Source: Malania oleifera
Taxonomy: Eukaryota > Streptophyta > Magnoliopsida > Santalales > Ximeniaceae
Assembly (NCBI RefSeq): GCF_029873635.1
Contig: NC_080420.1
Coordinates: forward strand, 120,474,719-120,538,718
Reading direction: 5' to 3'
DNA: 64,000 nt
Each line of letters starts with the position of its first letter. Position 1 is the stretch's first letter. The notes beneath the pieces were generated by a model, which saw only the letters and a program-made list of their open reading frames with translations, was not told the DNA's origin and did no database searches. Below, in pieces: positions 15,289 through 63,288 of this stretch. The position numbers and the translations under genes are program-made.

Positions 15289-15319
<31 letters not shown>

Positions 15320-21963: not shown

Positions 21964-21965
21964 GC

Positions 21966-30840: not shown

Positions 30841-31124
30841 GGTAGCAGGATCGGTATGGGTATGTATGTATGTATGTATGTAATATTCTGCTATTGTAGT
30901 AACGTTGTGTGGTTAGTCTCTAGGAGAGTTTTGTAATATTGTGAGCTCCCGAGACAATGTATGTATTGACCACGGTATTCCTTCACCATAAGTGAGGGTA
31001 TGTATGTATTTGGGACGAGGCTGTTATGTGGGTTGCCACCGGTTCTTTCTAGAGTCGGGTATGCGTTGGGTATGTAGTTGAGTTGATAAGTGGTAGGTTA
31101 CAAATTTCGAGGACGAAATTTTTG

Positions 31125-31138
31125 TAAGGAGGGGAGGT
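31125..31138 (+). promoter_or_regulatory. Polypurine tract
   Basis: GTAAGGAGGGGAGGT sits directly before the 3' LTR, the expected plus-strand primer. Confidence 0.8.
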
Positions 31139-31476
31139 TGTAAGACCCCAACCCAAGTTAAGTGTATTAAATAAATGAGGAAAAAATAAGGAAAGTTCAA
31201 AAGGCAAAAATCTGCAGGGCTCGTCAGCAAGGCTTCTTTGCTCGTCGTTGAAGCCTCTTGTTTAGTTCGGCTACGAGATTCACCAACTCATCAACAAGGA
31301 GATGCCGAGATATTTTGGGAAATCCTGAAATCTCAGGCTCATCGATGAGGCCACCTTGGCGTCGAAAAACGCCCTTCTACGGCCCGTTGACGAGGACATC
31401 GTCTCATCGATGAGTCTAGCAGGGTCAACTTGTTTATAAATATCTTTTTCACTTGTTTAATGGTTAAGAAACCAAA

Positions 31477-31512
<36 letters not shown>

Positions 31513-31670
31513 GGATTTCAGGTCGTCACTTGCCGGAATCTATGGTCCGACTTTACCATGTGGATCAAAAGGGGAATCTCTACATTTATAGCGAATCAGA
31601 AATTTGTTTCGAGGATTTTCAGGTTTTGACCCAAAACCGAGGTGAGGGTCCAATTTTAATTTAATTTCAG

Positions 31671-31704
<34 letters not shown>

Positions 31705-32980
31705 AGTAAGAATTGTAGTGAAGTATAGTTCTTGGATGTTTAGGTTTTAGGAACTCGATTCATAGTTTTAGAGCCGTAGAGTTCATATTTTGTTATTCGG
31801 GAAAAGGAAAGGGGATTCTATTTATATCAGTTATTTTTTAAATCGAGATCGGTAAACCTGTAGTTTACGATTGTATGTATGTTTTGGCTACTTATTTGGG
31901 AAAATCTATCGGGCGAAAATGCGGGATTTTCAGGTTACAGTTTTTGGAAAAATTTGAGGTTTCGGGTATCATCTCTATTTCTGTTGGAAAATTGTATGTT
32001 GTATAAAATTGTAGTATTGAGATGATCGTACCTGTATTTGTATTTAACTGTATTTCTCGAATTGAAAACGATATGATTTTTGTATGCTTAAATAAATGTG
32101 GAATGAACTGTTGTATGTAAAATGTTCCAGGTTTTGTAAAATAGTTAGGGGGGGCTAAATACCATACACTGATGAGTATAGGAACATGAGTTCCAAAATT
32201 GTTCTAGGTTTTGTAAAGTAGCTAGGGGCGGCTAATTACCGTACGCTGCTGCCATGTCTCGGCTAATTACCGTGGGCGAGAGTGTCCGGCTCAATATCTG
32301 AGGGTGTGAAATATCACCAGTTTGTTCCGGCTGGTCACTGATAGGTGTGAGTGGACACTGTACTGGCAACAATATCACTGTAAGGCTTCGATTATTGTAG
32401 GGTATCGTGTGCTTGAGTGTGACGACACTGACCGTATATTTGGTATTGTATGTATTGGAACTGAATTGTGAAAATACTAGAATTGTATCGTGTTATGTTT
32501 TATGTTGAAATAACACTTGTATGTCACACACTGATATAACATGTTTTCTTCCTTACTGAGAGGTGTCTCACCCCAAATATACAAATGCTTTTCAAGTACT
32601 TCAGGTAGTCGAAACTAGCAGCCTAGCGTCCGAAAGCGTGGGTGTCGGTTAGCTACGTTTAGTACTTGTGTAAGTACGGGTTTTGTAACCGGGTTGTCTG
32701 TGTTGGGTTTTGTAGACATCCGAAGTATGTATTGTATTTTGGGAACGTATATTCCAGTTATGTATAGACTCTGGTATGGTATGATGTATGTATAGAAAGA
32801 ATATTTCCGCTGCGTATTTGATGTGTATGGACATGTATGTAATTGTGTATAGGGTTTACATGTACCCCACGGGGTCGAACCCTCAATCAATATAGTATCA
32901 TGTATGTTTTAAATGATACAAAGATAGGTTAGGTTACTAAAATCACACCTAGGACCCATCCGCGGGTTCGAGGCATGACA
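31139..32980 (+). repeat. 3' LTR of the Tekay-like element
   Basis: 1842 bp. It has the same ends and order of motifs as the 5' LTR, with a longer CT tract (31481-31512) and a (TA)n run (31671-31699). The TTACTGAG block is at 32553-32574. Confidence 0.9.
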
Positions 32981-32985
32981 ATAAT

Positions 32986-34632
32986 AATGTCTTAATTAGA
33001 TATGAAGACATAAAAAAGAGGTGGAGAAGATAGTTTGATAAGTTGTTTAATTAAAACCAAAATGAAAGATTGAACTTGGAGGTGACAAATGAGGATAAGA
33101 CTTTAAAAAAGAGACTTATTTGCAAAATTAGAGTCCTTGAAGTTAAAATGTCATTTAAAAAGATGAAATGAAAGAAATCTATAAGATCAGATAAAATACC
33201 AATTGAAGTTTGGAAATGTTTAAAGCATAAAAGAATTATTTGGTTAACTAATCTATTCAATACAATTATAAAAACCAAGAAAATGCCAAAAAATTTGTAA
33301 AAAAGTATGTTAGTACTTTTATACAAAAACAAATGTGATATTCAAAATTATAATAACTATCGTGGAATTAAGATTATGAGTCATATGATAAAATTATGGG
33401 GAAGTGTAATTGACTTTAAAATAAGACTAGAAACGAGGATTTCAAAAAATCAAATTGGTTTATACCTGTGACATCAACAAGAGAAGATATTTATCTTTTA
33501 AGAAATTTAATGAAAAAATTTAAGGAAAAAGAAGAGGGATTTGCATATGGTTTTTATTGACCTAGAAAAAATATATAATAGAATACATGAGGAAGTTCTT
33601 TGGTGGGTTTTAGAAAAGAAGCGAGTACAGTAAATATACTAAGGTCGTTAAGGATATGTATGATAGAGTAGTAGCTAGCGTTAAAGGCTATAAGAGGAGA
33701 ATTTAGAGATGTTCCAATCACAATAGGCATACATCAAGGTTCTATTTTAAATCTTTATCTTTTTACTTTAATGATTGAAGAACTTACTAAGCATATCCAA
33801 AATGATATCCTTTGGTGTATGTTATTTGCAGATAATTTTATTTCGATTGATGATAATAGGAATAGAGTAGAATCTAAACTAAAACTTTGGAGAGTCACAT
33901 TGGAGTTTAAAAGGGTTTAAGATAAGTAGGAGTAAAATAGAATATATGAAATGTAATTTTAGTAATATAAGGAGTAGCAGTGGAGAGAAGATTAAATTTG
34001 ATAAAAAATTAATAGCACTAATAGATTTAAATATCTTGAATCTATTATGCAAGCTGAAAGGGAAATTGAAGAATATGTAATACATAAAATTAAAACAAGT
34101 TGGGTAAAATGGACAAGTGCATCAGGTATGTTGTGTGATCATAAAATACACTTAAAATTAAAAGAAAAATTATATAAGACAGCTACAAAGTCGACTATAT
34201 TTTATGGTTCAGAATGTTGGACAACTAAGAAACAACATATGCAAAAAGTAAAAGTTACTTAAATGCAAATGTTAAGTTGGCTAAGTGGTATAACATTAAA
34301 AAATAAAGTAAGAAACGAGCATATATGTAACAATTTAAACATAGCACTAGTCAAATACAAGACAAAGGAGGATGGCTTAGATGGTTTAGGCATTTGAAAG
34401 TCAAGCCTAGTAGAGCACCAAGGAAGAGTGAGTTAATTGTTGTATTTGACATGAAAAAAGGTAGGGATAAATCTAAATAAATATGAAATCTAAAATAACT
34501 TAAACTGAGATAGTGAAGAAGGATTTAATAGCACACCTAAAATTTAATAGAGGAAAACGGGTGAATTGGCAGAAAGGATTCATATAGCCTACCCCACTTA
34601 GTAGGACTTAAGATATTATTATTATTGTTGTA
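32986..34632 (+). mobile_element. RTE-type LINE, 3' part with reverse transcriptase remnants
   Basis: Conserved RTE landmarks can be read in order across several frames: LTKHIQNDILWCMLFADN (YADD-box region), SKGFKISRSKIEYMKCNF, WVKWTSASGMLCDHKIHLKL, TIFYGSECWTTKKQHMQKVK and MLSWLSGITLKNKVRNEHI. The end, CCTACCCCACTTAGTAGGAC then (ATT)n/TTG repeats, matches the usual plant RTE 3' end. Numerous stops and frame changes show it is long dead. It is a second copy of the family seen at 47645-49580. Confidence 0.75.
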
Positions 34633-35945: not shown

Positions 35946-38900
35946 CTGTCACCAAGAGAAGAAGTGTTACACTTGGAAATGGAAATGGAAATATGAAATG
36001 GAAAAAAGAAGGATTAAATTCTCAGCCAAAGGTAAAGAGATGCCATATTGCAGTGAATCCAAAATCCATTAACATGAATGGGCTCACCAAAGTTGCAGAA
36101 ACATGGAATGAACTCAAAAATGGCTTCTGTTGCCATAATCGCTTCCTTTCCCAAAAATCTAACCCTGAGACACTCACAATACCCCATGGTGCAGTATATA
36201 CATGACCATTAACATTATTCCAAGCTTATGAAATGAGTTCTGTAACAGGAGAGGCCCAGAAACAGCTCACAGAAAATATCTAAAGCGGAGTGCCTTTTCA
36301 GCCCTCCAAGCTCAATTTACAACAATCTGAAATTATGTATTCTATGTTGAAATGCCTAAATTACTGTGATCAATGCACTAATGTTCTCATAGGTCCCTCT
36401 ACTGGGAATCCTTGGTCCTTGACACTTTAGGACCCAGACATGGCTGAAGTGTCTAAGCATCTTGATGGGTGGATGAGTGCCCTTTTCTTTGGGTGGGCAT
36501 TATTACCTTCATTCAAGCTTGTCTTTATTTTATTCCACTTTATTTTTTTGCCTTTGCTCAGAATTGAGTTGTGGTGAGGGGTAGGATAAAAATCATCATG
36601 AGAGATTTTCTATTGTTTAGTATGGGTCAGAGGATGGATCAAGGGCAATTAGCTGTGGAGTGTTTTGCAGGTCAAAGGCTATAAAGTGGGGCTTGGCCTG
36701 TGGCTCTTTGGCGTCTTAAAATTGCCCTAGTGGTAAAATGGTTAAGGCAGTTTCTCTTGGAGGTTAATGCCCTTCTGCATAAGGTGATTGAAATTAAATT
36801 TTAATTGCAAAAGAAAGGGCGCCAGTGCTAATTCAATAACAGAGCTACTCATGAAAATCCTTGGTGTAAGAGGATAAAGAACTTTTTTATGGGATAAAAT
36901 AAATCAAATTGAATTCTTATGGTGATAAAAGGTCATTTTTTAAATAATTATACAACTCAAAATTTGATGTTGCATAATCTTTAAGAGCAACTCCACCTGT
37001 GATGCACTCAATGTTCAAATTTTTTTTACACATAATCAGTCGAAAGTCTGGGTAAAGGAGGGATGTTGCATTAGGTGGCTGACAATCGGTGTAAAACTTG
37101 TTAGATCACTATGATATGAACTCTTACCGATTATTTGCTAGGATGTCCCCTTACGAATGACACGTTGCACTTATGCCATGCAGGCATAGCAAAAAGTGGG
37201 CTAGGTGAGCCCAGAAGTGACACACTGCATTGGTGCCTAGGTACGGTGTCAAATATGCAAGGTTCCCACATCATTCTGCACGTGGGCAAGTGAAAAAGTT
37301 AAATCAAGGGACTAGGATTAGATTAGTAACTTACGGTTAAAAGCATGAGGATAGTGGACACAATGACTAGAAGAAAAAATTAACATAATCTACCCTCAAG
37401 AAACTAAGTGGGTAGGGGAAAAGGCTATTGATATTGAATAGTCAGGTTTTAAACTTTGGTACACTTGAAAAGAAAAATGTAATAATGGGATCGAAACCAT
37501 TATAGAGAAAGACTTAAAAGATAGTGCAATAGATATCGAAAGAGTAAAGGTATAGAATCATAAAAATCAAGATGGTCTTAGGCCAAAAGATAATAAATGT
37601 CATTAGTGCTTATGCTCCTCAAATAGGCTTAGCAGAAAACCTTAAGAGACACTTTTGGGAAAACATGGTGTTGTACCATGTGGCTCATATTGAGTGGAAC
37701 ACATTTGCAGAGAAAGCATGCTGAAGAAAACAAGGAAGTTGGTCTAAAGAAACACCGTCAATGGTTTGATGGTTACATTGATGGTTTCATCCAGAAGCCA
37801 AATCAGGAAGAAAATCGTCGACAGTTTGATGAAACCGTCGATAGTTTTGTTTGGTGCTATTTTTGAAATATGAACTGGAAAAATCAATAGGTTGGGGATT
37901 CGAGGCCAATCCTCCACGAATTGATACAATCCTTGTGTTGTATATATATAATGTTGTAACCCTGGTTTTGATCGATAGTGAATTTCAGCCGCCACTTGCT
38001 CCCCTGGACATAGGCATTCTGCCAAACCATGTTAAATCCTTATGTTGTGTTTATTGCTTTCATTATCTATGTTTGTTTCCATATTATTCATTGTGATTGC
38101 TGCACTACACGATCGTTTCCACACACATTATTGCACAACAATTGGTATTAGAGCTATTGTTAACAATGGCTGAAATTTCTTCTACAAAATTCGACATTGT
38201 CAAGTTCGACGGATCAGGAAATTTCGGACTATGGTAGAAGGGGGTCAAGGATTTGTTAGCGCAGCAGGGCATAATGAAGGCACTATACGAAAGGCATGGA
38301 CGACATCAGTTGGAAGGAACTGGAAGCGAAGGCTGCAGTGACTATCAAGCTTTGTCTGGCTAATGACGTGACGTATCACGTCATGGATGAGGAATCATCG
38401 GCGGCAATTTGGTTGAAACTGGAAAGTCGGTATATGTCCAAGTCATTGACGAACAATTTTATCTTAAGCAGAAACTATATGGTCTTAAGATGTTCTGATC
38501 TGAGCCAACACATCAACGTGTTCAATCAAATCATCAATGATTTGAAGAGAGTTGATGTGAAATTAGAAGACAAAGACAAGGCGTCAATGCTACTGAATTC
38601 TCTACCTGCTTCTCCTACATATGAAAATTTGGTTACTACTCTAATGTGCGGAAAGAAACTCTCGAATTGGAGGAGATCACAAGTGCTCTTTTAAGTTTTC
38701 ATCAAAGGAAGAAAGTCATCGATGAGAATCTACAAGGTGAAGGGCTTGTGGTGAAGGGTAACTAGGAACGTGGGAGAAGCAAGTTCCAGAACGGACTGAG
38801 TAACAATAAATCTCTATCAAATTCCAAGAAGATAAAGGACATACAGTGTATTAGTGCGGGAAAAAGGGGCACATAAAATAAGATTATCCAGAGAAAAAGA

Positions 38901-41900
38901 AATAGAATGCAGAGAATAAAGAGGGTCCATCAAAATCTGCGAATGTAGTGGAAGGAGACTCAGAGAACAGTGCCGGGATATGCTTTCAGTTTCATCCGAT
39001 TCAAATCATCTCACGGATTCTTGTATTCTGGATTCGGCATGCTCCTATCACATGATACCAAATAAAGATTGGTTTGACACCTACAGGTTAATAAATTCTG
39101 GTTCAATTTTGATGGGTAATGATGCGTTATGCAAAATTGTTGGAATAGAGAATATCAGAATTAAAATGTTTGATGGTGTTGTTATAACATTGTGTAATGT
39201 TGGCATATACCAAATTTAAGAAAGAATCTGATTTCATTGGGCACTTTAGATTGTAATGAGTTTAATTACAAATCTGCAAGTGAAGTAATGAAGGTGCGTA
39301 AATGTGTCTTAATCGTGATGAAGGGATAGAAATTAGCAAGAAATATGGTGAGTAAATGTGTCTTAATCGTGATGAAGGGATAGAAATTAGCAAGAAACAT
39401 CTATACAGTGCTAGGTACCACAGTTGTAGGTGGAGCTGCAACTGCAAAATCTGAGTCAGATAGTACAGTCTTGTGGCATATGCGGTTAGGTCATATGGGT
39501 GAGTGAGATGATGGAGTTTCATAAGAGAAATCTATTGAAGGGTGTCAAAACATGCAAGCTGAATTTCTGCAGGTATTGTGCTTTTGGGAAACAGAATAAG
39601 GTGTCGTTCAAGATAGCCACACACAAGACAGAGGAAATTGTAGACTATGTTCATATTGATGTTTTGGGGGGCAGTAAGGGTAGCATCACAGGAGAACATA
39701 TGTATTTTGTGAGTTTTATTGATGATTACTCACGAAAGGTCTAGGAGTACTTCATGCGACACAAGTTAAAAAAGTTTGCCAAGTTCAAGTTCTAAAAAGC
39801 TAAAGTGGAAAACCAAACCAAGAGGAAGATCAAATGCCTCAAGTCCAACAATGGTACTGAGTACACAGATTCAAAGTTTATGGAGTTGTGCGAACAGCAT
39901 GGAATTAAGAGACACTTCACAGTACGTAAAACACCACAACAAAATAGTGTTGCAAAAAGAATTAACAGAACAATAGCTAAAAAAGCTTGGTATCTCAGGT
40001 TGAATGCAGGGCTTGCAAAGAACTTCTGAGCATAGGTAGTGAGTATGTCAGGTTTCTTTGGACGTCCAACCTACGTGCATGTTTCTAGCGAGGAGAGATA
40101 CAAACTTGATGCAAAGTCTAGACAGTATATCTTTATGGGGTATCAGAAAGGGGTGAAACGTTTCAAGTTGTAGGATCCAAAGGCAAACAAGGTGGTGATC
40201 AGCAGATATGTGGTTTTTGATGAGAACGTCATGTTACAACGTACTCAAGAGAAGAGAAACAGGTGCTAGAAAACTGCAGCAGCAATAAGCATGTGGTGCA
40301 GGCGGCACTAGAGACTCCAAGTAGAGATGACAATGTTCAGAATGCAGGGAATTCTAACTCAAGAGACCAACAGCATCACAATATAGCTATACACAGGCCC
40401 AGACGCACTATCAGGCCACCCCCAGTTATGGTTTTGATGATTTGATTTCTTATGCACTCATTACTAATAGCGGGGATCCTACTACTTTTCAAGAGGTGAT
40501 GCATAGTCAAGAGAAAAGTAGATGAATGGGTGCTATGATGGAGGAGATGGAGTCTCTGCATAAGAACTAGACATGGGAATTGGTGGAGCTTCCAGAGGTT
40601 AAGAGAGCGATAGGATGCAAATGGGTGTATAGGAAGAAAGAAGCAGTATCAGAAAAAGAAAGAGAAAAATTCAAGGCTCATCTAGTAGCAAAGGGTTACT
40701 CACAGAGGAAAGGAGTTGACTATGATGAGATCTTCTCCCCTGTAGTCAGACACACTTCCATCATTGCAGTGTTGGGATTGGTAGTGCATTTTGATATGCA
40801 TTTGGAGCAGATGGATGTAAAGACGGCGCTTCTCCATGGTGATTTGGAGGAGCTGATGTACATGGCACAGTTAGAAGGGTTCAATCAACCTGGACAGGAA
40901 CACTTGGTATGTAAATTGAGAAAATCACTTTATGGGCTGAAGTAGTGTCCGAAGCAATGGTACAAGCATTTTGATTCCTACATGATCCGGATGGGCTACA
41001 AGAGATGTGAGTATGATTGTTGTGTTTATGTGAAGAGTCTTGATGATGGTTCATTTATTTTTCAGTTGCTTTGTGTGGATGACATTTTGATTGCTACGAA
41101 GAGTATGAGTAAGGTCAACAAGTTGAAAACTCTGTTGAGCAAAGAATTTTACATAAAGGATTTGGGTGCAGCAAAGAAGATTCTAGGGATGTAGATTCGC
41201 GGGGACAGATCTTCCAGGAAATTGTGGTTATCTCAGCGTAGCCATGTTGAGAGGGTGTTAGAGGGATTCAGCATGGATAATGCAAAACCAATGAGCACAC
41301 AGTTGGCGAATCATTTTTTACTGTCTACAGCCCAGTGCCTGAAGACAAATGATGAAGTTCAAGATGTCAAAGGTTCCGTGTGCTAGTACAGTGAGGTGCT
41401 TGATGTATGCGATGGTTTGTACAAAATCGGATCTAGCACAAGCTGTCAGTGTGGTGAGCAAGCTTCTATCAAATCCGGGACGACAGCATTAGGATGCAGT
41501 CAAGTGGATTTTCAAATACTTGAGGGGTACTACAGACTATCCCATCATGTTTAATAGACAACAAAGTGATCCATCAGTTATAGGATATGTGGATGCAGAC
41601 TATGCAGGGGACTTAAATGACAAGAGATCTACTAGAAGGTATGTATTCACTCTTGTGGGGGGACTTTTTTGGTTAAAAGTCCATGGTTCAGTCTCTAGTT
41701 GCACTATTTACTCTTTAAGTCGAAGTATATGACAATGGTTGAGGCTGCCAAGGAAGCTTTGTGGCTTATAGGATTGGTAAAGGAGTTAGGTATTTAGCAA
41801 GGTGGAGTCCAGTTGCATTGTGATAGTAAAAGTGTCATTTATTTGGCAAAGAACCAGGTATATCATGCGAAGACCAAGCACACATATGAGGAGGTTTCAC

Positions 41901-44900
41901 AGGATCAGGGAATTGGTTTATTCTAGTGAACTATTGCTTGAGAAAGGTCACATTTCTGAGAACGCAGCAGACATGTTGACAAAGCTTGCTACCACAGACA
42001 AGTTCAAACATTGCTTGGACTCGATTAACATCTCTAGACGCTAGATAGGAGGCGTCCCAACCTTTTGTCCCAGGTGGAACTCCAAATTATGTTTTCTTCT
42101 TTCCTAAGGGGTGAATATTTGCCAAAGTGGAGATTGTTGTAGTATATGGCTCATATCGAGTGGAACACATATGCAGAGAAAGCAGACTGAAGAAAACAAG
42201 GAAGTTGGTTTGAAGAAACACCGTCGATGGTTTGATGGCTACATCGACGATTTCAGGCAGAAGCCAAATCCAGAAGAAAACCGTCAACGATATGCATAGT
42301 CCATCGACGGTTACATCAACGGCTTCAGGCAGAAGCTATCTAGGAAGAAAACCATCAACGATTTTTTTTCGCGTTGTTTTTGAAATTTGAACAGGGAAGA
42401 TCAATAGGTTGGTGATTCAGAGGCAAATCCTTCACAAATTAATACAAGGGTATTTGAGGGATTCTCTAATACCTCTGTACGTCTAGGGGTTAGTATAAAT
42501 ACAATGTTTTAACCCTGGTTTTGATTGATAGTGAATTTCAACCGCTGCTTGTAGGGGCGACAAAACGGGTTAATGAACCGAGTTTGAACAAGTCATAAAC
42601 GAATAGGGGTTAAATGGGTTCGGGTTGACTCATTTATTAACAGGTGGCTAATAGGGAAACTCAAACCCGCCCGTTTAATAAATGGTTATAAACGGGTCGC
42701 CCGTTTAAAAATATAATTTATTTATTTTAAATTTTTTAAACATTTCAAATAATTAGAAAAAAAATTACTCCATTTTATTTATTAAAAACATAAATGTAGA
42801 AGATTGAAGAAGCTTGAAGGTTGTGAGCTGTCGGCTGAAGCTGAACTGCTGAAGCCTTGAATAGGAAACATCCAAATAGCAGGAGATCTGGAGAAGCTTC
42901 CGCTGACCAAGATGATGGTTGATGTTGCCGACTGGCCGAACACTCGAAGTCTCGAACAGTGCCTAGGTTTGGGGGAGACACCGAAACAGCTGGAGAAGCT
43001 TCCAAGGGATGCCGCCGATCATGAGATCTGGGTTCACTGGACTTTCTGGGTGCCGATTGCCGTGGTCGAAGCCTCAAAGGCCGACTGGCCGAACATTCGA
43101 ACAGGGACTAGGTTTGGGGAAAATGGGAAATTGTGGTGAGGGACTAAGCGAGATTGCCGACTGCAAGAGCGACTGCAGAGGTTAGTGCCAACTAAGGGAG
43201 AGGGAGAGGGAGAGGGAGAGGGCAAGGTGAGGTGAGGTCGTGCGGCATGAGGATCACTACCGACTGAGGGTGAGGGAGAGGGTGGGTTAGGTCTAAAATA
43301 TATATATGCAAATAAACGGGTGACCCACCCAAAACCGCCAAATTTGTTTAATAAACAGGTCAAGTCAGCTTCTATCAGACCCATAGTAGTTAAAAGCGCG
43401 CCGCAAGGCGCAGTGAGGCAATGAGTCTGCCGCCTCATACCAAGTGGGGTGAGGCGACCCCAGGCGAGACGAGGCGCAGTGAGGCGCGCCTTGTGTATAT
43501 TTAAGCCATTTAAAGGAGAGAAATAGCCCAAGCCAAACTCGTATCCCTCATTTGACTCAAACGAACAGAGCCCTAGCCCCTTTCAACCCTTCAAAGCCCT
43601 TCGTGAGTTCGTTTGCGAGCCTTTGAACCAGCCGAAAGCCTTCGCGACTTCGTCTTCGAGCTTCAATCAGGATCGTGAGTTCATCTTCGACATTTTGAAG
43701 AAGCACGACCTGCGCAACTTCGTTTCGAACCAACCGGAGCCCTCGCGAGTTCGTCTGCCTGCCTTCGAAGCAGTCGTGAGTTCGTCTGACTGTCTTCGAG
43801 CACGACGTGAGTTCGTCACGTAGCCTTCAACATTTCGAACCAGCTGGAGATCGTCTTTAAGCCTTCGAACCTTTGTAAGTCTTCTTCTTCTTCTTCTTCT
43901 TCTGCTGCTGCTTCTCTTCTTCTTCTTCTTCTTCCTCTTCCTGTTGCATGCTTGCTGCGTGCTGCTGACTGCTGCCTGCTCTTTTTCTTCTTCTTCTTCT
44001 TCTTTATATGTAAGCTTACTGTTTTTTAATTTATAATATTTAATTTAATTAATGTAAGCTTATAAATTATAACTAATAACAAAATATTTATTTTTTTTAC
44101 AGAAATTTAGCTACTGTTTTTTAATTTATAATATTAAGTTTAATTAATATAAGCTTACAAATTATAACTAATACATAATATTTATTTTTTTTACAAAAAT
44201 TTAGCTACTGTTTTTTAATTTATAATATTTAGTTTAATTAATGTAAGTTTATAAATTATAACTAATACATAATATTTATTCTTTTATTGAAATTAAGCTA
44301 CTGTTTTTTAATTTGTTTGGAAATGCATTATGTAAGTCTTAAATTTTAAATATATGATGCATTGTTTTTTCAGTTAGGATACAGGATACCAAGTCTAAAA
44401 TCTTAAATGGATTCTAGTTCTGGATGTGAGGCCTCAGCAAAGAAAGATCCCGCATGGAAGTATGCACATTTGGAGGATCAAAAAAATAGAAATAATATGA
44501 CTTGCAATTTTTGTGCTAAAGTCACAAGGGGAGGACTATTTCGGGCAAAACAACACATTGTCGGAGGATTTCGAAATGTGAAAGAATGCTCTGAGTGCCC
44601 TGCTCATGTACATGAGGAGATTAAAGAGTATATGTTGAAGAAAAATATGGAAAAGGAGGAAAATGAGTTATTGCCCGACTTTGATGATATAGATCATTAC
44701 GGTGAAGATGAAGAAGATGAAGTTCAAGAAATTGACATTCGTGGCAAGAGAGTGCTTACTAGTGATGAAAGTAAAAGATCATACCAATCCAACTTGAAGA
44801 AACCAAAACAGAAGGGGCCTATAGACTTGTTTTTTACTCCCGATCCAAAGAAAGCGATTCAAGCTAGGAAAGAAGAAAGATGAAGCAAACATCAATAAAC

Positions 44901-47900
44901 GAAGCGTGCAAAAAAGAACTAAGAAAAAAGGCAATGGGAGATTTTGCTAGGTGGATGTATGATGTTGGGATACCATTTAATGTTGTACATTTGAGCAGCT
45001 TTGCAGTGGCACTTGAATCGATTGGACAATATGATCCTAGAATAAAGCCACTTAGCTATCATGAAGTGAGAGTTCCTTACCTAAAGGAGGAAGTTAGTCG
45101 AATGAAAGAGTTGTTGAAGGTCCATAAGGAGGAATGGACAAAATATGGCTGCTCAATTATGTTTGATGGTTGGAGAGATTCAGTTGCTAATAAGAACATA
45201 ATCAACTTTTTAATGAACTCTCCAAGGGGATCAGTATTCATCAAGTCTATTGATGCTTCTAATATTGTCAAGAATGCAGATAGAATGTATAGATTACTTG
45301 ATGAGATGGTCGAGGAAATTGGAGAATCAAATGTGATTCAAGTGAGAACTGACAATGCATCAAACTATGTTGCAGCAGGTAAGAACTTATTTTTAGAACT
45401 ACTTTCTATAGTGTATATATTGTTTATTTTAATATTTTAATGGCTTCATTCCTTGATTTTTCAACAGGGAGATTGTTGGAAGCAAAGAGGCCACATTTAT
45501 ATTGGACACCGTGTGTTGCTCATTGCATTGATTTAATTTTGGAGGATATTGGGAGGATGCCTTCAATTCATGCAACTTTGAAAAGGGCAATTTTTTTTAA
45601 TGGCTATATCTATAATCATGTTGGCATTGTCAACTTGATGAGACAGTTCACTGGAGGAAAGGAGTTACTAAGACTTGCAGTTACAAGATTTGCAACTGCC
45701 TTCATCACCCTTCGTTCAATCCATCTTCAAAAGAACAACTTGAGGAAGATGTTTACTTCTAAAGATTGGAATACTACTAAATGGGCAAAGGAGGCGGCTG
45801 GCAAAAGAGCAGCTACTATTGTTTTGATGCCTTCTTTTTGGAGTACCATCATCTATGCTTTTAAGTTAACAGGTCCACTTGTTCGTGTACTCCGTTTGGT
45901 TGATGGGGAAAAAAAGCCTGCAATGGGATACATTTATGAAGCAATGGATAGGGCTAAGGAAGCCATAGCTAAGGCTTTTGGTGAGAGAGAGGATAAATTC
46001 AAGGAGGCATTTGAAATTATTGATACGAGGCGGGGATGCCAACTCCATCAACCGTTGCATGCAGCTGCACACTACTTGAATCCAGAATTTTTCTATTCAA
46101 ACCCCAACGTTTTGCAAGATGAAGAAATTATGACGGGTTTGTGCAAATGTATTGGAAGGTTACTGCCAACTATTGAAATGCAAGATAAAGTTTCAAATGA
46201 GTTGGAAAAATACAATGCCGCTAGTGGCGTCTTTAGCATTAGTTTGGCAGTGAGACAAAGGAAGACAAAAGCACCAGGTAAAGTGGCATTTGTACTACCT
46301 TTTTATTTTTGAAAATTATTTTTGCTATTTACCTAGTAGGTATTCATTTAAATTTATTTTATAACAGCGCAATGGTGGATGGCATATTGATCAACAACTC
46401 CAAACTTGCAAAAGTTTGCTGTGAAAATTCTTAGCCTCACGTGTAGTGCTACCGGCTGCGAAAAAAATTGGAGCATATTCCAACATGTAAGTCATTAGTA
46501 TATCATGGATTAATTATTAAAGAACAAGAACTACCAATCTACTGCTTTTTAGAATCATTATTAACCATATTACTTTAAACTTTTTGCAGCTTCATAGCAA
46601 AAGGAGAAATAGGCTATCCTAGCAACGCTTGAATGATTTGGTATTTGTGAAATATAATCGAACTCTGAAGCGTCGATACGACAAACGTGACACCATTGAT
46701 CCCATCCTCCTAAAGGACATTGATGATAGTAATGAGTGGTTGATTGGTAGGATGGATGGTGATTCTGATGAGGATGATGAACTTGTGTTTGAAGATGATA
46801 ATTTGACTTGGGATTCTGTTGCTAGAGCTGCTGGACTAAATAACCCCCCGCATCACACTAGATCAAGAATAAGTACAAATATGCCATCATCGTCTAGAGG
46901 AAGAGGAAGGGCTACATCTAGTAGTGCAACCAGTGCTAGGGGTCGGACCACAATGTTGGAACTTGTAGATGAGGATGAAATCCAAGTGGATAGTGCAGAG
47001 GAGACGGAAGAGGAAAAAGATGTTGGAGAAAACAGTTCTGATGATGAAGAGGAAGATGATGATATCTTCGCCGACTTAGTTGATGATGAGTGATGAGTGA
47101 TGATTGAGGAGGATTTTTAGATTTTATATTTTGAAATCTTTTATTGTACTCTTTTCTTTTGATGTTGAACTATGTTGAATTGTTGATGCTTTTGGGCTTC
47201 ATCTTGGCAATTTTATTAAATTTCCAATTTTTTTATTGAATGTTTTGGCATTTTAAATTCTAATATCACTAGATATTCATATGATCATATATAAATTACC
47301 CCAAATAGATATTTTACACCATTGTAATAATTGTGCGCCTCACCTTCGTGAGGCACGAGGCTCACGCCTCGGCTTCAAAGCCCCTTTGCGCCTCGGCTCG
47401 CCTCGGACTACTATGATCAAACCCAAAGCTGATTTAAATGAGCGGGTCATGGGTCACTCGTCAGGTTTCGACCCATTTTGCCACCCCTAGCCGCTTGCTC
47501 CCGTGGACGTAGGCATTCCGCCAAACCACATTAAATCCTTGTGTTGTGTTTATTGCTTTCATTATCTGTGTGTATTTCCATATTATTCATTGTGATTGCT
47601 GCACTGCACGATCGTTTCCGCACGTATAATTGCACAACACATGGATAGTATTGTATAAGGGATATCAAGGATTAACAAAAATATTGATAGAAGTAGATTT
47701 GATAGAACCTAAACGAAGAAAATATAATAAAATTTAAAAATGAAATGATCAAGGATGGTGTAGACACAAACACTCCTTGGCTTAGGATAGCTAGCTCTAT
47801 TAAAAAGATAGCAAAAGAGAGTTTATGTGAATCAAAAGAAAGATTCTTGAATGGCAAAAAATGTTGGTGGTGGGATCAAGATGTCTAGAAAGTTATAAAG

Positions 47901-50900
47901 ACAAAAAGAATTTGGTATAAAACCTGGAAAAAAAATGTAAAAATATAAAAAACATTGAAAAGTATAAAGAGGCAATAAAAGATGCAAAAAAAAATTGTTT
48001 GTGAAGCTAAACATAGATCATTTAATAATTTATATGCTATATTAATTACAAAAGATGGGGAAAACAACATTTAAACTTGCTAGAGCTAGAGAAACAAGGA
48101 GCACAGAATTAGGTAATGTAAAATGTATAAAAAGTGAAGATGATCTTGTCTTGGTGAAGGAAGAAGACAAAAGATAGGGGCGAAGTTAATTAAGTAAGCT
48201 ATTCAATGAAAACAATGCAAAAGGCTTAATTTTAGAATTGATAAATGAGGAAAAGACTTCAAAATATGAGACTTATTCGATATTAGAGTTAATGAAATTA
48301 AGTTTGCACTAAAAATGATGAAAAATGGAAAAGCAATAACACTAGATAACATCCCAATTAAAGTTTGAAAACGCTTAGGTGATTATATGGTCAAAACTTA
48401 TAAATCATACAACGAAATTATGGGAAACGGTAGTCGAACAAAAAATTAAGGTTTAAAACGAGAGTCTCATAAAATCAATTTGGTTTTATGCTTGGGAGAT
48501 CTACATTAAAGAAGCTATAATCTTTCGAGAAGATAAATGGAAAAATTTAGGGAAAAGAATAGGGACTTGCATATGGTTTTCATTGACTTAGAGAAAGCAT
48601 GTGATAGGATACCTAGGGGAGTTTTATGGTGGTTTTAGAAATATATATATATAAAGCTTATGTAGTAGGTATACTAATGTCATTAAAAAAATATACAATG
48701 GAGTAATAACTAGCGTTAATAAAACATGTAGAGAGGCTAGAGAATTCCTAATCACAATAGATGTACATCAAGGATTTGCTTTGAGCTTATCTTTTTGCTT
48801 TAGTGATAGGTGAACTTACTAGGAGTATTCAATATCAAGTTCCGTGGTATATGTTGTTTGCAAATGATAGTCTTGATTGATGAAAGTAGGGGTGGAGTAG
48901 AATCTAAGTTATAATTATGGAGAGAAGCTTTAGAATCTAAAGGTTTTAGGATAAGTATAGACAAGACAGAATATATAAAATGTAATTTCAAACACAATAG
49001 GAGGAATATTGGAGAAAAGGTTAAACTTGATGATCAAGAAATCAATAACACTAGTAGATTTTGACATGTTGGATCTATTAAAAAAGCTAAAGGAAAAATT
49101 GAAGAGGAAGGAATGCATAAAGTTAAATCTAGATGGGTAAAATGGAGACGTGTTTCGAGTGTGTTATGTGATTGTAGAATACTAAGAAATATCATTCAAA
49201 AAGTAAAAGTTCACAAGATTAGAATGCTAAAGTGGATGAGTGGCATAACATTAAAAGATGAACTAAGGAATCAACATATTCGTGATAAGTTCGGCATAGC
49301 TCTTGTAGAAGATAAGGATGAGATAACTTAGATCATCATTTGGGCATCTGCAACATAGACAAAATAGTGCACTAGTGAAGAAGAGTCAGCTAGTTAATGT
49401 GAGGACAGTAGACGAGATAGAGGTAGACCTAAAAAAACTTGGAATGAGATAGTAAGAATTTAATAGCCCTGAATTTGTCGGAGGAAATTGCCCATGATCA
49501 GTTGAATTGGAGAAAAAGGATTCATGTAGCCGACCCCACCTAGTGGGACGAAAGGCTTGGTTTGTTGTTTGTTGTTGTTGTTGTATAATCTTCAAAAGAG
49601 TACTACCATGCTTACCTGGCAGCAAGCTTTTCTAGCTATCTTGCACATTGAATTTATCCAATATATCATCAATGTAATTTTCTTGAGCCCTAATACCTTT
49701 CTATTCCAGTCTATAAACAATTCAATATCCAGGAGCATAGAGGAAACATGATTGAGATTTTTCATTTAAAAATGGTTTAGCAACCATACTTTCATACTAG
49801 ACAACATTCCTACATCATTCTCAATGACAAGGAAGGTAAAGGGTAGAAAGAGGATCTATTTGCAAAGCTTAAACTGAAGGGTACTGCACTTAAAATGTAG
49901 AAGAGAATTGAAAAGCAATGTGCCTAGCAAAAGAGCAAAAACAATTCTTATCTGCAGATTATGCAATGCAGTTGTACAAGAAATTTTGTAACTTCAATCA
50001 TACACAACCAGTTTCTATACTCTCTATTAGGATTAGTTTAAGTAATACGCAAGAATTCATTACCTTGCTAGCTTGCAGGTTTGAAGCAATCCATTAGACA
50101 TAAGTTAGGAGGGATTCATTTGCTCAACTAAGAAGAAGCTCAAAAACATGCCTTAATGGCAAGAGAAAGGGTGTAGCAATATGGAACAAGGAGACCACTT
50201 CCTGGAAGTTATCAGGGTCCAAGGCAGCAAAGTTCAGCTGCTGTTTGGGTGTTCATAGGTCAATGAGCTATTACTAATGCTCAAAAGGATAATCAAACCA
50301 TTGCCAGGCTAATGAAAGTGAAAATGGGAAAGAAACAACAGGATTTGGCCTTCAAAATAGGTGTGGTGCAAGTCACCCCAAGGCAGGTAATGAGTTACAG
50401 ACTAGGTTCAAATTTGTCTTTCAGATTTGTATTCGAGGGATGACAAAGAAGTTGCAACTGAATTACAAGTTGAACAACTTCTTAGAGAACCCGCAGGGAG
50501 GTGAAGGATAGAAGGGGTAATCAATACAAATACATCCTAGTGAAGTGGTTGAGCTAACCAGCCTGTGAGAAGTACTTGGATTAAAGAAGAGTTGAAGAGG
50601 ATTGATCCAAATATCCATAGAGAGTTTATGAAGACTTTTCCGCCAGAACGAATTTGATTCCAGACCACATAGGGTTGAAGCAGGAGAGCATCCAAGTCCA
50701 AATGGAAGGCAAAATATGCCAGATTTACTGCCTGTTACTGTAACAATCACTGTTCGCATTATTGTAGCATAACTGTCCATGATACTGTAGCAGTCTTCTC
50801 TTTTTAGCGGTTTTATGTGTTCTGAGTATTTTATTTAGAGTTATTTTGAACTATTCTTTCATAAATAAATACAGAGTTGAGATTAAAACCTCTCCTAGGA

Positions 50901-53900
50901 GATAGTGCTGAGATTTTAGGCTTTTCTGTAACCTAGTAAAAAAACCTCTCCTAGAGGATGTGGATTCAGTTTTTTTCCCAGAAATTCTCTCTAGCTGTCA
51001 AACACCAGGGACTAATCTATTTCTGTTCCCTATTCAATTTCTTATGAAACTTCTCCTATTTTTCTGTTTGTATTGCTGCTGGAACTCTGTTCCATGGGAG
51101 GCAATCAACTTTCACATTGCAACCCAGCATCACATTTGCACAAACACCACCAACCAAACAAGATAATTTATCATAAGCAGCATAGTCAAATTCAAACCAT
51201 GAAACATCATCCAATCCATTTTGTTCCAATAACAGTAAACACGAGCTCTTTCCACATAACACATGTTACACTAAAACCTAGCTAGGGAAAAGAGATGGGT
51301 CAGCATAAAGCCACACAAATTTACTAAGGGCCCCTGACAGATGACCAATGCGAATAAGAAACACATGAGCAAATGCTTCACAATATAAAATTCTGATTTG
51401 CAACAAACGCAATGATTTGAACTTTTTTCATACATAATGAACAGATTTCATTAAAGGAAAAAGAATGTACAGAAAGGAAAATAAGAAATCGTACTAACAT
51501 GATAAAGAAGCCCCCAAAAAAAAATAAACAAACAAAAAAATCAAAGAAAAAATGCTAGTGAATCCTGCTGAAAATCCGAAGATTACTTTAAAACAACCCG
51601 CAGCAAAAGCTCAGAGAAAAACCATGTATCATAACCTATCTCAGACAACGATCATGTCATCCTCTTGCCCATGAAGTTAAGCACATCCCATTCCAACCAA
51701 ATCCCCCACAAAACCACACATCTCCACAAATCAGTGACATCTTTGCTCCCACCAAATCTTCTAAAAGAAAAATGCAAAACAAAAAAGAAAAATCTTCCAC
51801 CAACTCCAAACAAATAAAATTCTCTCCACATAAGCCAAACATCTATTCCATACACTCCGAGTAAATCAACAGTACAAGAAAAGATGGGAAACAGAATCTG
51901 ACTTGGCAGCATAAAGAACACATGTCCAGGGATAATGCCTTGTTGGCCTCCTACTCTGCAGTAGATAGCTGGTGTTAACTAACAAGAACTACCAACCAAA
52001 TGACTGCCTTAATCTTAGAGGGAACTTTGGCCTTCCAAATAATACTATGAAGTAGAAAAGACATTATATTTAATCAAATTACCAAAAAAAGAGATTTACA
52101 AGGAGGACAGGGGGAGTGGGGGAACAATGACTCCAAATCATACTCCTGAACATCAACGAAATCAAAGAAAAGAGCTCCTCCACCTCGCTATCATTAACAT
52201 ACCTACGAAAATGAAAATCCCAAAGAGATCTATTCCATTAGAGATCATAAAAAAAGAAATGACATCATTATGCACCATGGAAAGATACTGCGAGATCGCC
52301 CCAAGGACGCCTTCGGCATCCAGGGATCACAGACCGACTATAGAACCCTCTTCAATAAGTGAAACATATTAGCTGTCCGCTCTCAGGTTAGGCAATAAGG
52401 GTCAGAGAAGGGCAATCACTCATTCTTAAAACTAGCATTCTTAAGACCAATGAAAGAGTCGGGCGAAAAAGGAGGGAAAGCTCTCCCTTCCTCGTTCTCC
52501 TGTGGCCGGATCCTCCGGAACCACAAGAAAGAGAGGAGGAAAAAAATGAATAAATAAACTACGCAATATCACCCAACCAAATATCCTCCCAAAAACGAAT
52601 TTGAAAACCATCACCAAATTTATAATAGGTAAAAGTGATGAAGTTAAATCTGTGAAATAAGCCTCAAAGGGCTCTCAAAAGAACATTTTGTGCCCATAAT
52701 TGCCTCCCAACGGTTCACCTGCTAGCCAAGAATACTTGTTATAACTTGTGCTGAAGAGAGTTCACCTCTGAGAGAATCCTCCATAACCATTTATCATTAA
52801 AACAGTGCTTTTAGACACCAACTTACCAAGAATTCCTCCACCTCCAGCCTACAAACAACCTCCTAGCTAACCAAATGATCCCTCCTCTCCTTCCCTTGGC
52901 CAAAGAAAATCCCTCATAATTTCCTCAATAGTACTTGTGGCACAACAAGAATACTAAATAGAGACAAATAAAAAAGAGTGACAGTAATAAACAAGCCTTA
53001 ATGAGGATGATAGAACCTCCTAGAGAAAACAAAGCACCTCTCCAGTTCTCAGTAAAGACCTTACCCAAGAAAGTGCAGCTAACATGATCATACGCCTTTT
53101 TGAAAACCAACTTAAAAATGTAATCCCCTTCTCTTTCCTCCAACGGACATCCTCCAACACCTCATTAGCTAGTAAGATAGCATCTAAAATTTGTCTGCCC
53201 TCACAAAATCACTATGAGACGGAGAAATAGTATCACAAAACACCAAATCAACCTATACACATGAACTTTAGCAATCATGTTGAGATGATTTCAGGCTTGA
53301 AAATAAATTTGGCAAAGAGTGGGATAGCTGGTATTAACTCGAGTGATTCTAGATCATTGGATTTTGGTGGAGAAAGAGAATAAAAGGGAGGGTGAAAGGG
53401 TGCTCTTTTTTTCTCTAGGTGGTCATATCACACTCATTCAGGCTTGTCTCTGTAGCATCCATGTGTTCTTGTCCATTTTAGAATACCTGTAGGTGTTGCT
53501 AGGGAAATGAGAGAATCATGAAAGATTTCCTTTGGAATGGGGTTGGGAAGAAGAAGGATCATTTGGTTAGGTGGAAGGTGGTGTGCAGGTCCAAGGAAGA
53601 GGAGATTTATGCCATGGTAATTTTGTGTCTAAAAAAATCACTCTTTTCGGCAAATAGTTATAGCAGTTTTCCTTCGAAAATTCCCTTTGGCACAATTTAT
53701 TAAAAGAATGTGGCATGCACAGGATTATTTGGGTGGGTGATTCTGCTCTATCCATATATTCTCCTCATCTTTATCACCTATCCTCATTGCACAATGGGGC
53801 TATCTCCTCTTTCTTGATCATAAATGGGGATGACTTTTCTTGATATTTCCATTTTCATGTCACCAAAGAAGGGAGGTGGATGAACTCACAGCTTTGTTGG

Positions 53901-56900
53901 ATTTGCTCAAGGGTTTCTGCCCTTCTGACAAGAAGAATACTTGGTTTTGGCCTCTTCATTCTACAAGCGAGTTTTCTTGTATGTCTTTTTCAATCATGTG
54001 ATTCACATAGATGTGCTGTTTGAGCTTTATGGTCATATTTTGAAACCCAAAGTTCCCTCAAAGACTACACCTTTTATTTGGTTGCTTGTTCTCAACAGAT
54101 TTAACACCAACAATCTGTTGCAGAGTAGGAATCTTCTAAGGCTTTAACGCTGGCTGTGAGCTCTCTTTGTTATGATAGTTCCAGAATGAGTTTATCATCT
54201 CTTTGCACTTTTTTCTCCTTGGAGGGTTTGGAATAAGCTTTTTGGTTTGTTTGAGGGGAGTTGGGCGTGTCCTGACTCAGCATTAGTTTCTGTTGGCTAC
54301 TTCCTTTATGGGGTGGACTGTTTGGCAGGAGAGGAAATGGTATGGAGTCATAGAAGTGTTGGATTTTTCTGTTTTGTGGGGTATTTGGTTGGAGAGGAAT
54401 GATCATATCTTTACTAGGAAAAGATGGTTTCATCTTTGCTTTGGATAGGATTCAGCATTTGGCTTCACTTCGGGCTTTTGCACATGGATGTTTAAATGGG
54501 ATGCTCTTTTCAGATTTACAGCATGATAGAAAGGTTTCGTTATTTTGATTGCAATTTTTTGTTTTTTGTTCTCTTTCTTTCTTAAGAGGATTTCTTGTGC
54601 TCCTTTTTTGTCCACATTCTTTCTTCTTCAATAAAATTTCCTCTTTTTCTATCCAAAAAAAATCTGGTGCACACTAGTTAATAAACAGATAAAATCACCT
54701 AGCTTATTAGACTAATTCTTCTCAAGCATCTATGTTACACAAATCAAATGATTAATTTCTCATATGCAACTCATCTGCCAAAAAGGTGGTGGCAATTGTA
54801 GCAAGCAACACATATATATCAATTTTGGACACATGGGTTACAAGCTAAGAGGTGTGTTTGTTGCACGTGGAAATTCTAATGCATGCATATGCAAGTTGAG
54901 TTCAAGTACATTTTTGTCCTACACAAGTAGTCACCAAAATAAATAAAAAATGGAATAGGATGATATAACTCTGTTCAGAATTGAATAGTTTTTTTGCTAT
55001 TTTATGATTGGAAATGAATCAAATAAATAATCTTGTTGAGCAAACTAAATTTTCAGATATTTGTATGGAATTTAGATTTGTTAGAGGAATAATATTGGCC
55101 CAGCTAAAGTTGGCATGTATCAACAACAATGCTGATTTTTTTTTTTTGAAGAGAAGTTTGTGCTCATATGTTTTGCCCTCACATAATTTGATAGAAATTT
55201 CAGGAGTGAAAATAAGTTTTGCATTTTTTCACTAAACCGCCAGCTTTAGATCATAGGACTTCAAGTACAAAAATCTTCCGGTAAGCATTTTTTTAGTGTG
55301 TTTTGCCCTCATATCAATCTTATCAAAATTTCATTGTGAAAATGGCCTTTTTAGTTTGATAGTTTCTCATTCTAGGACAACATAGTATAAAAATTTTTCA
55401 TCATGAGAGATCAGATAATAATAATAATAATAATAATAGTATCATTGAGTAAAGTAAGCCAATGAAAGGGTATTTTCATATTAATAATTTTTAAACTACA
55501 TAATAGTATTTTCATAGAAACAAAATTGAAAAGGCAAGGATATTTTTTGTTGGCGCAATGTTTTATACACGTGAACGTATCCATGCTTTTACAATAGTAT
55601 GGATATATTCAAACGAGTTTCATTGAGCATAAATCATGACCTATGTTGACCACAGGAAACATGAATAATTTTATTGAATTTGTGCCATCCAGGAATAACT
55701 ACTTTTGCCTTCAATCCAACGGCCAACTTCTGCCCAGGTAGGAATACGTAAAGAATCCTCATTGATAATATTTTATAAAGACCAAAACAGAAAAAGGAAA
55801 AACAAAGATTGTTATTGCACTTAGTAGCCATTTACCATCATTCCAATTTTTATTAGATTCATTCCCACTACTCCTCAAAGAATGCCATATAGATACTCAA
55901 AGCAAGCTCAACAATATTGTCCATCCTTCAAGCACCATGGCAAACTCACTCCATAGTACCCCTCACGACTTCATAAAGATCAAAATATGCCAACCAAAGA
56001 GTAGTTTTGCATCAACATAATCCTAAAATTATGTCAATCATGCTAAAATTAACTCCATATGTCCCACTTTTATTTTTTATCCCACCTTCTGCCTTTTGCT
56101 AATTGAAGACCCTAATACAAAGTTTGTGTCCTAAGAAATGAAGCCTCAAGTAGCTAAAATCAATCACTACCTTAGTCCCGAGGATTATGCTCACAGCTCA
56201 CATTTACAACATTTTCAGCAAATACAAAGATTAGCATTGTATCTTATTTCACATTAAGGAATAAAATGACACATATAAGCATGACAAGCTCTAATCTCAA
56301 AGAAACATATCTCCAAAAGAGTCCTAAGTTTTTTCCGCATACACCACAACTTGCCAGGTGCCTTGATCATTTTATTGGAATCCTTCATATTAAAGCAATG
56401 GATTAAGGAATGGAAGAGATTAGATTCACAAATAACATGGATCATCTCTCCTCCTTTAACATGGGAGGTCCAAGAATTATGGATAACAAGGGAATGTTTA
56501 GTTGTGGATAACCTTTTTCATTTTCCACTTCAGTTTCCAAAGATTTAAAAAATGCAACTTTGTTTTCCAGTGTCCAACATTTACATAGAAAATCCAGAAA
56601 ACAATGTCAAAGTGACTTTCCAGATTTTCTATACTGGAAAACTGGACAACAAGGTGGCATTTTTGCATTTTTTCTGGAAAACTAGAAATAGAAAATAAAA
56701 CTGTTTTCCACAAATGAACAGGCATTAAAATTCTGTCCAATTTCCAACACACAAAGGGCCAACTAATAGGCAGTTTACAAGTGCCATCTTGAAATTCCAA
56801 AACGACTTTAAAATAAAGGGGTTGGCAGGTATAATTCTTGCTTATCACCAATAAGCCAATCAGTTTTAAGTTTGAGTTTTCTCACCTAATTAACAGACAA

Positions 56901-57945
56901 ATGGGCATGAATCTGCAAATTCAGAAGCCATCCAAATTTTAATCTACACAAACATATCAAGTTCCAGCTCCATTTTCCCAATTAAGAACACCACTCAGTA
57001 TAATTTAAACTTAACTAAAACATAGAATTTTTATTTGAACCCATTTATAGAAATTTTTTTTTCTAGTATTTTCAGAGGAAGGGAACAAAACAAAGTGCAT
57101 GAATACATCCTAGTTAGTATATCAGCATTCAAGAAGCTCAAACTCCCTGGCCAATGATCAGCAAAGCAAAATTATAAAATACTGTTTCACATAAAAGCGT
57201 GAACTTAAAAAATATAATGGCATGCTTATCAAAAGTTCATTCCTCTGCAGTATTGTAACCCAAACGGTCGCTACTAAGATCCTGTTAATATTAACACGCC
57301 TCCTAAAGCATAACTAATCAAAACAACATAAAATGAAGACATAAATTTTCAAAATAAAAAAAGTTTAAAAACTTAATTCCGCACCTTTCAGACGTATTTT
57401 CATCTGACTGTTTCTTGACAGAGACTGTTTCAGGCAAAAACTGAGGCTGAACACTGACAGGATAATCGGCCATAGGCAAAATAAATGATGACAACAATGG
57501 ATCAGGTGCAGCATTGGATGAAGAAACCATACAAGATCCCCCAAAAAGGGACTGTAGATTCCCTTCTCGCAGCTCCTTCCTCAACAAGGAAAGCGTTGAA
57601 TGAGATCCACCTTTACGTGATTTTCTCTTACGCTGCAAGTAACCTCTAGTTAAGGAAATTAGACTATAAAATCAAAATCATCACAATGGGAATGCATGAC
57701 CAATCTAGTGTTAGCAATACAAAATTACAAACAACAAAAGCAACCAAAATATCTCTGGAACTGCACACAGAGTCACAAATTTTGCACTCATAAAAGCGAG
57801 TCAAGCAATATCCAACTTAAAAATATGGGTGGTGTATCCTTTCAAGGATAAGCATTTGGTTAAACACATCCACAGAAAGAGAGGGAGAGAAATCAAGTAA
57901 AAGGAAAATGGATTACAAACTACCCCCACTCCCCAAAAAAAGGAA

Positions 57946-61566: not shown

Positions 61567-63288
61567 TGTCACGCCTCGAACCCAGTAATGGGACCCAGGG
61601 GTGAATAAGTAATTTAACATGTCCATGTATCATACAAATCATCAATGACACAGCACCACAAATGAGGGTTCGACCCCGTGGGGTTCCCGTACACCCTATA
61701 TACATTCATTACACTACAGATACATAAAGGAAAAAGGTCTTTCTATACATAATCCGTACCAACCAGAGTCTATACAAAAGAAATCTAGGTCTCATAATAC
61801 AAAACATAACCCGGGTGTCAGCGAAAACCACAAAAGACAACCTAATACAGTCCTAGTACTTACCCAAGTACTTCCTGCAATACACCGACCACTACGCTCC
61901 CAATACAAGGATGCTAGTTCCGATTACTCGAAGGACCTGAAAAATATGTACGTACAGTAGGGGTAAGAGACATCTCAGTAAGGTAGATCCAAATTGTATC
62001 AGTGCGTGACATTTGAGTGTTATCATGACATAAAACATACACAAATCAATGCAATTTCAGTATTTACACAAAACAGTTCCAGTACAGTGCATTCACGCAC
62101 ACACACATAATCAAGTAACCTAGTGTCGTCACACCCTTTGGCCCGAAGCCGGCCTGCATTACACGGCATCCCTGGCACATGGCATAGCCCTAGGCTCCCA
62201 TGGCATCGTACCGGTACAACTGATGGATCCACACCCTTCGGTGATCAGCCGATAAGGCTCACGCCCTCGGATATAAAGCTAAACACTTTTGCCAAACATG
62301 GCAGGTGTTATTTCACACCATCGAATATAGAGTCGAACACTCTTTCAGTACTTGGAACAATTCGGAACCTAGTTCCTATTGCATTTCAACAAAACACAAT
62401 CATGCATGTTCACATAACCAAACAAACCACACCCATTTGGTAATCTAAAATCATGATTTTTCAAGCATATACAGTTTAAACAAGTAAAGGCACGGTCATC
62501 CCTATAACATAATATATATCACAATATATTAACGATTTCCAAACAAAACCAGAGATGCAACCCAATGCCCCTTTTTTCCCAAAACTGTAACATGAAAAAC
62601 TCATAGTTTTATCCGTTAGATTCCCCTAAATGAGTAACCAAAACACACACAGGACCGTGAACCACGTTCTACTGAGTTCGATTTCAAAAATAACCAACAT
62701 AAACAAAATCTCCTTACCTTTCCCAAAATGACCAATCCCAAACTCTACGATCCCTAAATAGCGAACCAAGTTTCCAAAACCTACAAATCACAGTACAGAA
62801 AGTACTCACAATTCGATTCCCTACAAAACTACCGGAACCGAAATATAAACTAAGCCTTACCTTGATTTTGAGTCAAAACCCAAAAATGCCCGGAATGAAG
62901 ATCCGATCCGCAAATCTTGTAGAGAATCCTTCCCTGATCCTCGTGGTAACGTTGGATCTATGATTCCAGCAACGTACGGCGAAGAAAAACTAGAGAGAGA
63001 GTGTCTTTCGAGTTCTTAGAGAGAAAGGGAGAATATTTGATTTCTTAGTGATTAAGCAACCCAAGTGGATATTTATAGCCCTTTGACTCGGCCAACCTCA
63101 TCGACGAGATGGCGTCTTCGTTGACGAGTCACTAAAGACAGTTCGTCGACAAGACGGAGACCTCATCGACAAGCCTAAGATTCTCGGTTTCCCAAAACCT
63201 CTTAGCTTTCCCTCGTCGATGAGCTCCTGCATTTCGTCGCCGAGTAACAGAAGGCCTTCGTCGACAAATCACAGTTCGGGTTCTTATA
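61567..63288 (-). mobile_element. Solo LTR, same family as the Tekay-like element
   Basis: The plus strand runs from TGTCACGCCTCG to GGGTTCTTATA. The 5-bp target repeats TCAAC (61562-61566 and 63289-63293) are perfect. Read on the minus strand it repeats the order seen at 20165-21963: TCGTCGACGA cluster (about 63090-63270), TATA box (GGCTATAAATATCC near 63075), leader, the TTACTGAG block (61961-61982) and the GGGTTCGACCCCG region near its end. No coding. Confidence 0.85.

Follow-up and report, generated by a model that had tools for sequence, protein, structure and literature searches.

A Di19 gene of Malania oleifera with a last intron very probably lengthened to 21.4 kb by transposons

Does a 112-nt exon belong to a small plant gene if the preceding exon lies 21.4 kb away across transposons? 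This question is raised by a Di19 locus in a 64,000-nt stretch of the Malania oleifera genome (NC_080420.1, positions 120,474,719 to 120,538,718; the whole stretch is called the window here, and coordinates count from its first letter). The window contains no N, has a GC content of 36.2%, and gave nothing in Rfam and tRNA scans. On its minus strand lies a complete Di19 gene, whose five exons join to 663 nt (220 codons and a stop) in a single open frame that holds both the zf-Di19 and the Di19_C domain in full. The coding exons and the two introns that matter most are as follows.

60228-60153, minus strand: Di19 exon 1, 76 nt of coding sequence from the ATG at 60228; placed by tblastn at C4:120534869-120534946
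59222-59080, minus strand: Di19 exon 2, 143 nt, first part of zf-Di19
58280-58203, minus strand: Di19 exon 3, 78 nt, remainder of zf-Di19
58202-57639, minus strand: Di19 intron 3, AT-AC with U12-type signals, ends GGTTAC
57638-57385, minus strand: Di19 exon 4, 254 nt, Di19_C positions 1-72
57384-35946, minus strand: Di19 intron 4, GT-AG, phase 2, 21,439 nt
35945-35834, minus strand: Di19 exon 5, 112 nt including the stop TGA, Di19_C positions 71-102

The protein matches zf-Di19 (PF05605) at 86.8 bits over positions 1-54 of 54 (cut-off 27.5) and, once exon 5 is joined, Di19_C (PF14571) at 131 bits over positions 1-102 of 102 (cut-off 29). The gene also has the five-exon, four-intron plan of the family: a passage of PMC8954995 counts four introns in 31 of 36 Di19 genes from seven species, and exon number varies among the barley and sweet potato members in the passages that treat them. 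Judged by its sequence, this is an ordinary plant Di19 family member with the usual five exons, and its 220-aa product is predicted, by family membership only, to be a stress-responsive nuclear protein.

An earlier note on this DNA had claimed that exon 4 ends in phase 2 with a GT donor at 57384, that an AG acceptor and a 112-nt exon follow at 35945-35834 on the same strand, and that this exon joins in phase and encodes the C-terminal signature of Di19. All of this is borne out: the donor is the GT at 57384-57383 (GAAAG/GTGCGG, exon/intron), the acceptor is the AG at 35947-35946 (GGTGACAG/GCATG, intron/exon), the exon ends in TGA, and the profile match becomes complete with it. The length of 220 codons plus stop given there is also correct, but requires an AT-AC intron 3 that the note did not mention.

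The 39-residue peptide of exon 5 taken alone matches Di19_C at 42.8 bits (E 7.9e-11, positions 71-102, cut-off 29), and exons 1-4 with read-through into the intron reach 79.9 bits at positions 1-72. Because exon 5 attains this score by itself and the two parts are complementary on the profile, the match is not a product of chance, and we rejected that explanation on the profile score. In the six frames of the whole window the C-terminal signature pattern turns up a single time, and the exon-5 DNA matches only itself in the 1,494,336,490-bp genome at E <= 0.001, an absent match being no proof of rarity. In comparison with the paralogue C3, exon 5 has a dN of 0.40 and a dS of 0.59 over 35 codons, a ratio only weakly below 1 (0.215 and 1.30 for exons 1-4) and too little to establish purifying selection on exon 5.

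The reading frame also depends on where intron 3 ends. U12-type introns have the 5' site consensus ATATCCTTT and the branch site consensus TTCCTTRAY close to a terminal AC. The 5' end of intron 3 is ATATCCTTT at 58202 (its one other occurrence in the window is on the plus strand at 33805), a putative branch site TTCCTTAAC at 57657 is the sole occurrence in the window with both strands searched, and the 3' end reads TTCCTTAACTAGAGGTTAC with AC at the exon border. Compared with this consensus, intron 3 carries U12-type (AT-AC) signals, from which removal by the minor spliceosome is predicted. An AG six bases downstream was tried as the end of the intron and would give 218 codons with the LQ before RKRK lost; it was discarded in view of the U12 signals and of the AT-AC that stands at this place in three of four paralogues, ATATCCTT...AC being found there in C3, C5 and C12. 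The fourth, C13, has an 80-nt GT-AG intron at the same place, as against AT-AC elsewhere, possibly a U12-to-U2 change within one gene family.

These paralogues also bear on whether the distant junction is peculiar to this gene. Genome searches with zf-Di19, the protein and Di19_C indicated five Di19 loci, C3, C4 (the window gene), C5, C12 and C13. In C3, C4, C5 and C12 the border between exons 4 and 5 falls at the same place and in phase 2, and each exon 4 coding for Di19_C is followed on its strand by an exon 5 of its own; C3 holds a complete 222-aa Di19 frame in five exons with an identical exon plan. The exon 5 of C5 scores 24.5 bits against Di19_C, below the cut-off of 29, yet has the signature in frame (SEFVQGLLWSTMLDDSL). 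Since place and phase are the same in the paralogues, we judge the junction by sequence to be the family's normal one, with length as the difference: the last intron measures 363 nt in C12, 714 nt in C3, 9,522 nt in C5 and 21,439 nt in C4, so that one genome offers a series of 0.36, 0.71, 9.5 and 21.4 kb at one homologous intron position. C5:105461246-105451723 is thereby a second Di19 paralogue with a long last intron (9,522 nt).

The donors of this intron are GTGCGG in C4, GTATG in C3 and C5 and GTGCTG in C12, that of C4 resembling the donor consensus less than GTATG does, which speaks against the splicing model, though C12 also departs from GTATG. The last introns of C4 and C3 were compared in order to locate the ancestral intron within the long one, and gave only short matches (best E 0.004), too weak to be used. 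At C13 no exon-5 signature was found in the region fetched (C13:25150001-25158500), and a Di19_C row 88 kb from that locus was not accepted, as it scores 22.3 bits (below the cut-off) and contains one stop; either truncation of the C13 paralogue or great length of its last intron may account for this. Neither a second locus owning the C4 exon 5 nor an intronless retrocopy was found in 21 tblastn rows, 10 Di19_C rows and one DNA row.

What, then, separates exon 4 from exon 5? The repeats recognised within intron 4 are the following.

37669-47639, plus strand: copia LTR retrotransposon with a hAT nested inside, antisense to Di19
42552-47489, plus strand: hAT-type DNA transposon, inserted in the copia 3' LTR
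47800-49597, no strand assigned: high-copy dispersed repeat, class not assigned (best 40 of 11,486 first-look candidates scored)
51818-54300, no strand assigned: dispersed repeat material with internal inverted repeats, about 2.4 kb matched (best 40 of 2,736 candidates)
54300-54665, no strand assigned: dispersed repeat continuing the preceding one (best 40 of 1,201 candidates)
56495-56734, no strand assigned: short dispersed repeat (best 40 of 1,201 candidates)

The largest of these has gag, integrase and RVT_2 domains together with LTRs and is flanked by an exact 5-bp target duplication (CATGG), which places it in Ty1/copia. Its LTRs (5' LTR 37669-38140; 3' LTR 42135-42551 and 47490-47639) begin with TGTTG, end with CAACA and are 85.2% identical (472 sites, K2P 0.169). 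Substitution rates used in LTR dating are 1.3e-8, 7e-9 and 2.5e-9 per site per year, and at these the K2P distance gives an age of 6.5, 12 or 34 My, respectively. Within the copia no plus-strand frame longer than 138 aa is left (the next measures 124 aa), whereas the frame of exon 5 is open. The element within its 3' LTR has terminal repeats TAGGGGYGRCAAAA with ends that read TAGGGGCGACAAAA and TAGGGGTGGCAAAA, an 8-bp target duplication GCYGCTTG with one mismatch, a DUF659 match of 128 bits and a zf-BED match of 19.9 bits, just below the cut-off of 20.6. BED and DUF659 proteins, TAGGG-type terminal repeats and an 8-bp target duplication are the hallmarks of hAT elements, and by these hallmarks the element is assigned to hAT, the duplication with its one mismatch included. 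A tandem repeat with a 94-bp unit in about 3 copies lies at 44017-44314 inside it. Copia and hAT together make up 9,971 nt, or 46.5% of intron 4.

Beyond these two insertions the contents are less sharply defined. The repeat at 47800-49597 has no Pfam domain match; a related copy elsewhere in the window is made up of 19823-20151 plus 33004-34351. For 49598-51500 no repeat match was obtained, the best 40 places all being occupied by the neighbouring abundant repeat, and between 54300 and 57300 matches fell solely at 54300-54665 and 56495-56734 among the best 40 of 1,201 candidates. The domain search covered all six frames of 47501-57384, the three plus frames of 36001-45302 and two of the three minus frames of 36001-47500, as well as 35 of 52 ORF pieces of at least 75 aa; non-coding LTR remnants would stay invisible to it. 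The earlier note had described a wall of nested transposons made of L1, RTE, copia, hAT and Ty3 material. Copia and hAT are clear; LINE-like material is represented by a weak zf-RVT match near 52000-51848 on the minus strand (18 bits against a cut-off of 27.5); the frames searched (six at 47501-57384, part of them elsewhere) yielded no protein domain of RTE or Ty3 type. As for the wall itself, repeats amount to at least about 14.8 kb, or about 69% of intron 4, a sum that is a lower bound with the best 40 places taken per search, and the remaining third may or may not be of transposon origin.

A Ty3-type element does occur in the window, outside the intron: it occupies 20164-32980, downstream of Di19. 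Its LTRs are about 1.8 kb long and share 84.7% identity, and its integrase ORF scores 29.3 bits against a cut-off of 32.6. The element apparently splits a repeat, a relative of which lies unbroken in the Di19 intron at 47804-49306. Just upstream of Di19, parts of the Ty3-type LTR recur at 61567-63243 as an inverted and diverged copy (66-71%). Elsewhere in the window, two long ORFs lie side by side at 14946-17222 on the plus strand, one of 392 aa with a RING finger and the other of 339 aa with a PHD finger.

How unusual an intron of this length is was gauged in the same genome from the gaps between neighbouring conserved-domain matches on the same strand, in order and within 60 kb. We kept gaps of more than 60 nt with at most 12 profile positions missing, and allowed an overlap of up to about 15 positions for the myosin head or about 25 for the chaperonin. 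The myosin head gave 86 matches (65 of 99 candidates scored) and 51 gaps, 10 of which exceed 5 kb, 4 exceed 10 kb and 2 are at least 21,439 nt long (22,071 and 24,429); these two omit 12 and 6 profile positions, and a small exon could hide inside them. Cpn60/TCP1 gave 87 matches (87 of 94 candidates scored) and 44 gaps, 4 of them above 5 kb and one above 10 kb (16,928), with none reaching the length of intron 4. A 21-kb intron is in the upper tail, with 2 of 95 gaps longer, and is not unique. The word extreme, which the earlier note applied to it, does not hold, given the 9.5 kb in the same intron of C5 and the longer myosin gaps. Among the literature matches listed, where intron lengths are mostly in figures, none describes a Di19 intron as long as about 21.4 kb.

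What the sequence shows is the exon order, the frame, a junction in common with the paralogues and two of the insertions. The best explanation is very probably that of an ordinary Di19 gene whose last phase-2 GT-AG intron has been lengthened to 21.4 kb by transposons and is spliced to give the 220-aa protein. In its simplest form, neutral transposon insertions would have lengthened intron 4, the transcript would most likely run through all of it, and the major spliceosome would remove it, joining 57385 to 35945.

Premature polyadenylation within intron 4 would instead make a 205-aa protein with another tail the main product and leave exon 5 as a relic. Read-through does meet a stop shortly after exon 4 to give such a protein, AATAAA occurs 32 times in the sense strand of the intron, and PMC10241880 reports an association of intragenic transposons in Arabidopsis with alternative transcript ends. 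However, the antisense strand has 32 AATAAA motifs as well, and because the two strands are equal nothing here points to a built-in premature end; copia and hAT are antisense to the gene, and exon 5 retains an open frame, its AG acceptor and the Di19_C signature, so that we consider this outcome very unlikely. A misjoin or misplaced repeats could also have set exon 5 apart from exon 4, given that there is one assembly and that repeats occupy much of the interval. Against such an artefact, the window is free of N, strand, order and phase are as in three paralogues, both large insertions are framed by target duplications and the exon-5 DNA has no second match in the genome, which together make it extremely improbable.

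Normal splicing of the long intron could also have a layer of control on top of it. For the transposon-dependent regulation suggested in the earlier note, the presence of the transposons is all that speaks at this locus; by analogy with rice and Arabidopsis, Di19 may be regulated via transposon silencing. In one form, intron 4 would be heterochromatic and need an IBM2/EDM2-type pathway, making Di19 output depend on silencing. PMC7145194 describes rice genes with heterochromatic introns that are regulated via OsIBM2, but also an enrichment of such introns near promoters, and we regard this form as unlikely for a last intron. Bolder still, intron 4 might act as a switch, its silenced state allowing read-through and full Di19, with stress or loss of silencing yielding the 205-aa form; if true, that form would be without the last 30 Di19_C positions, but we rate such a switch as highly improbable.

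The gene with its transposon-lengthened last intron can be set beside several known systems. With the plant Di19 family it has both Pfam domains, five exons and a U12 intron in common, and it differs by a last intron of 21.4 kb. Arabidopsis Di19-2 has a U12 intron too, the passages concerned being silent on whether it is AT-AC: its splicing is described as defective in u11-48k plants (PMC4892727), Di19 is listed among genes needing U11/U12-31K (PMC3422263), and Di19-2 is given without significant change in 31k knock-down plants in the relevant passage of PMC5853960. Like IBM2/EDM2 targets, the C4 gene has a TE-filled intron, read here from the sequence; unlike the promoter-proximal introns of the rice passages, it is the last one. 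In what the respective passages report, Ginkgo has 16,939 introns (12.45%) longer than 20 kb (PMC5118899), large grape introns are more than 80% repetitive, one size class of them exceeds 20 kb, and annotation errors are described at long ones (PMC3058033), and Malania oleifera itself has introns much longer than those of Santalum, LTR activity being held responsible for the differences in genome size (PMC10235099). Intron 4 is not different in principle from these TE-expanded introns; it adds one more gene to the published pattern of TE-driven intron growth, and illustrates cleanly how easily annotation could lose the terminal exon of a small gene.
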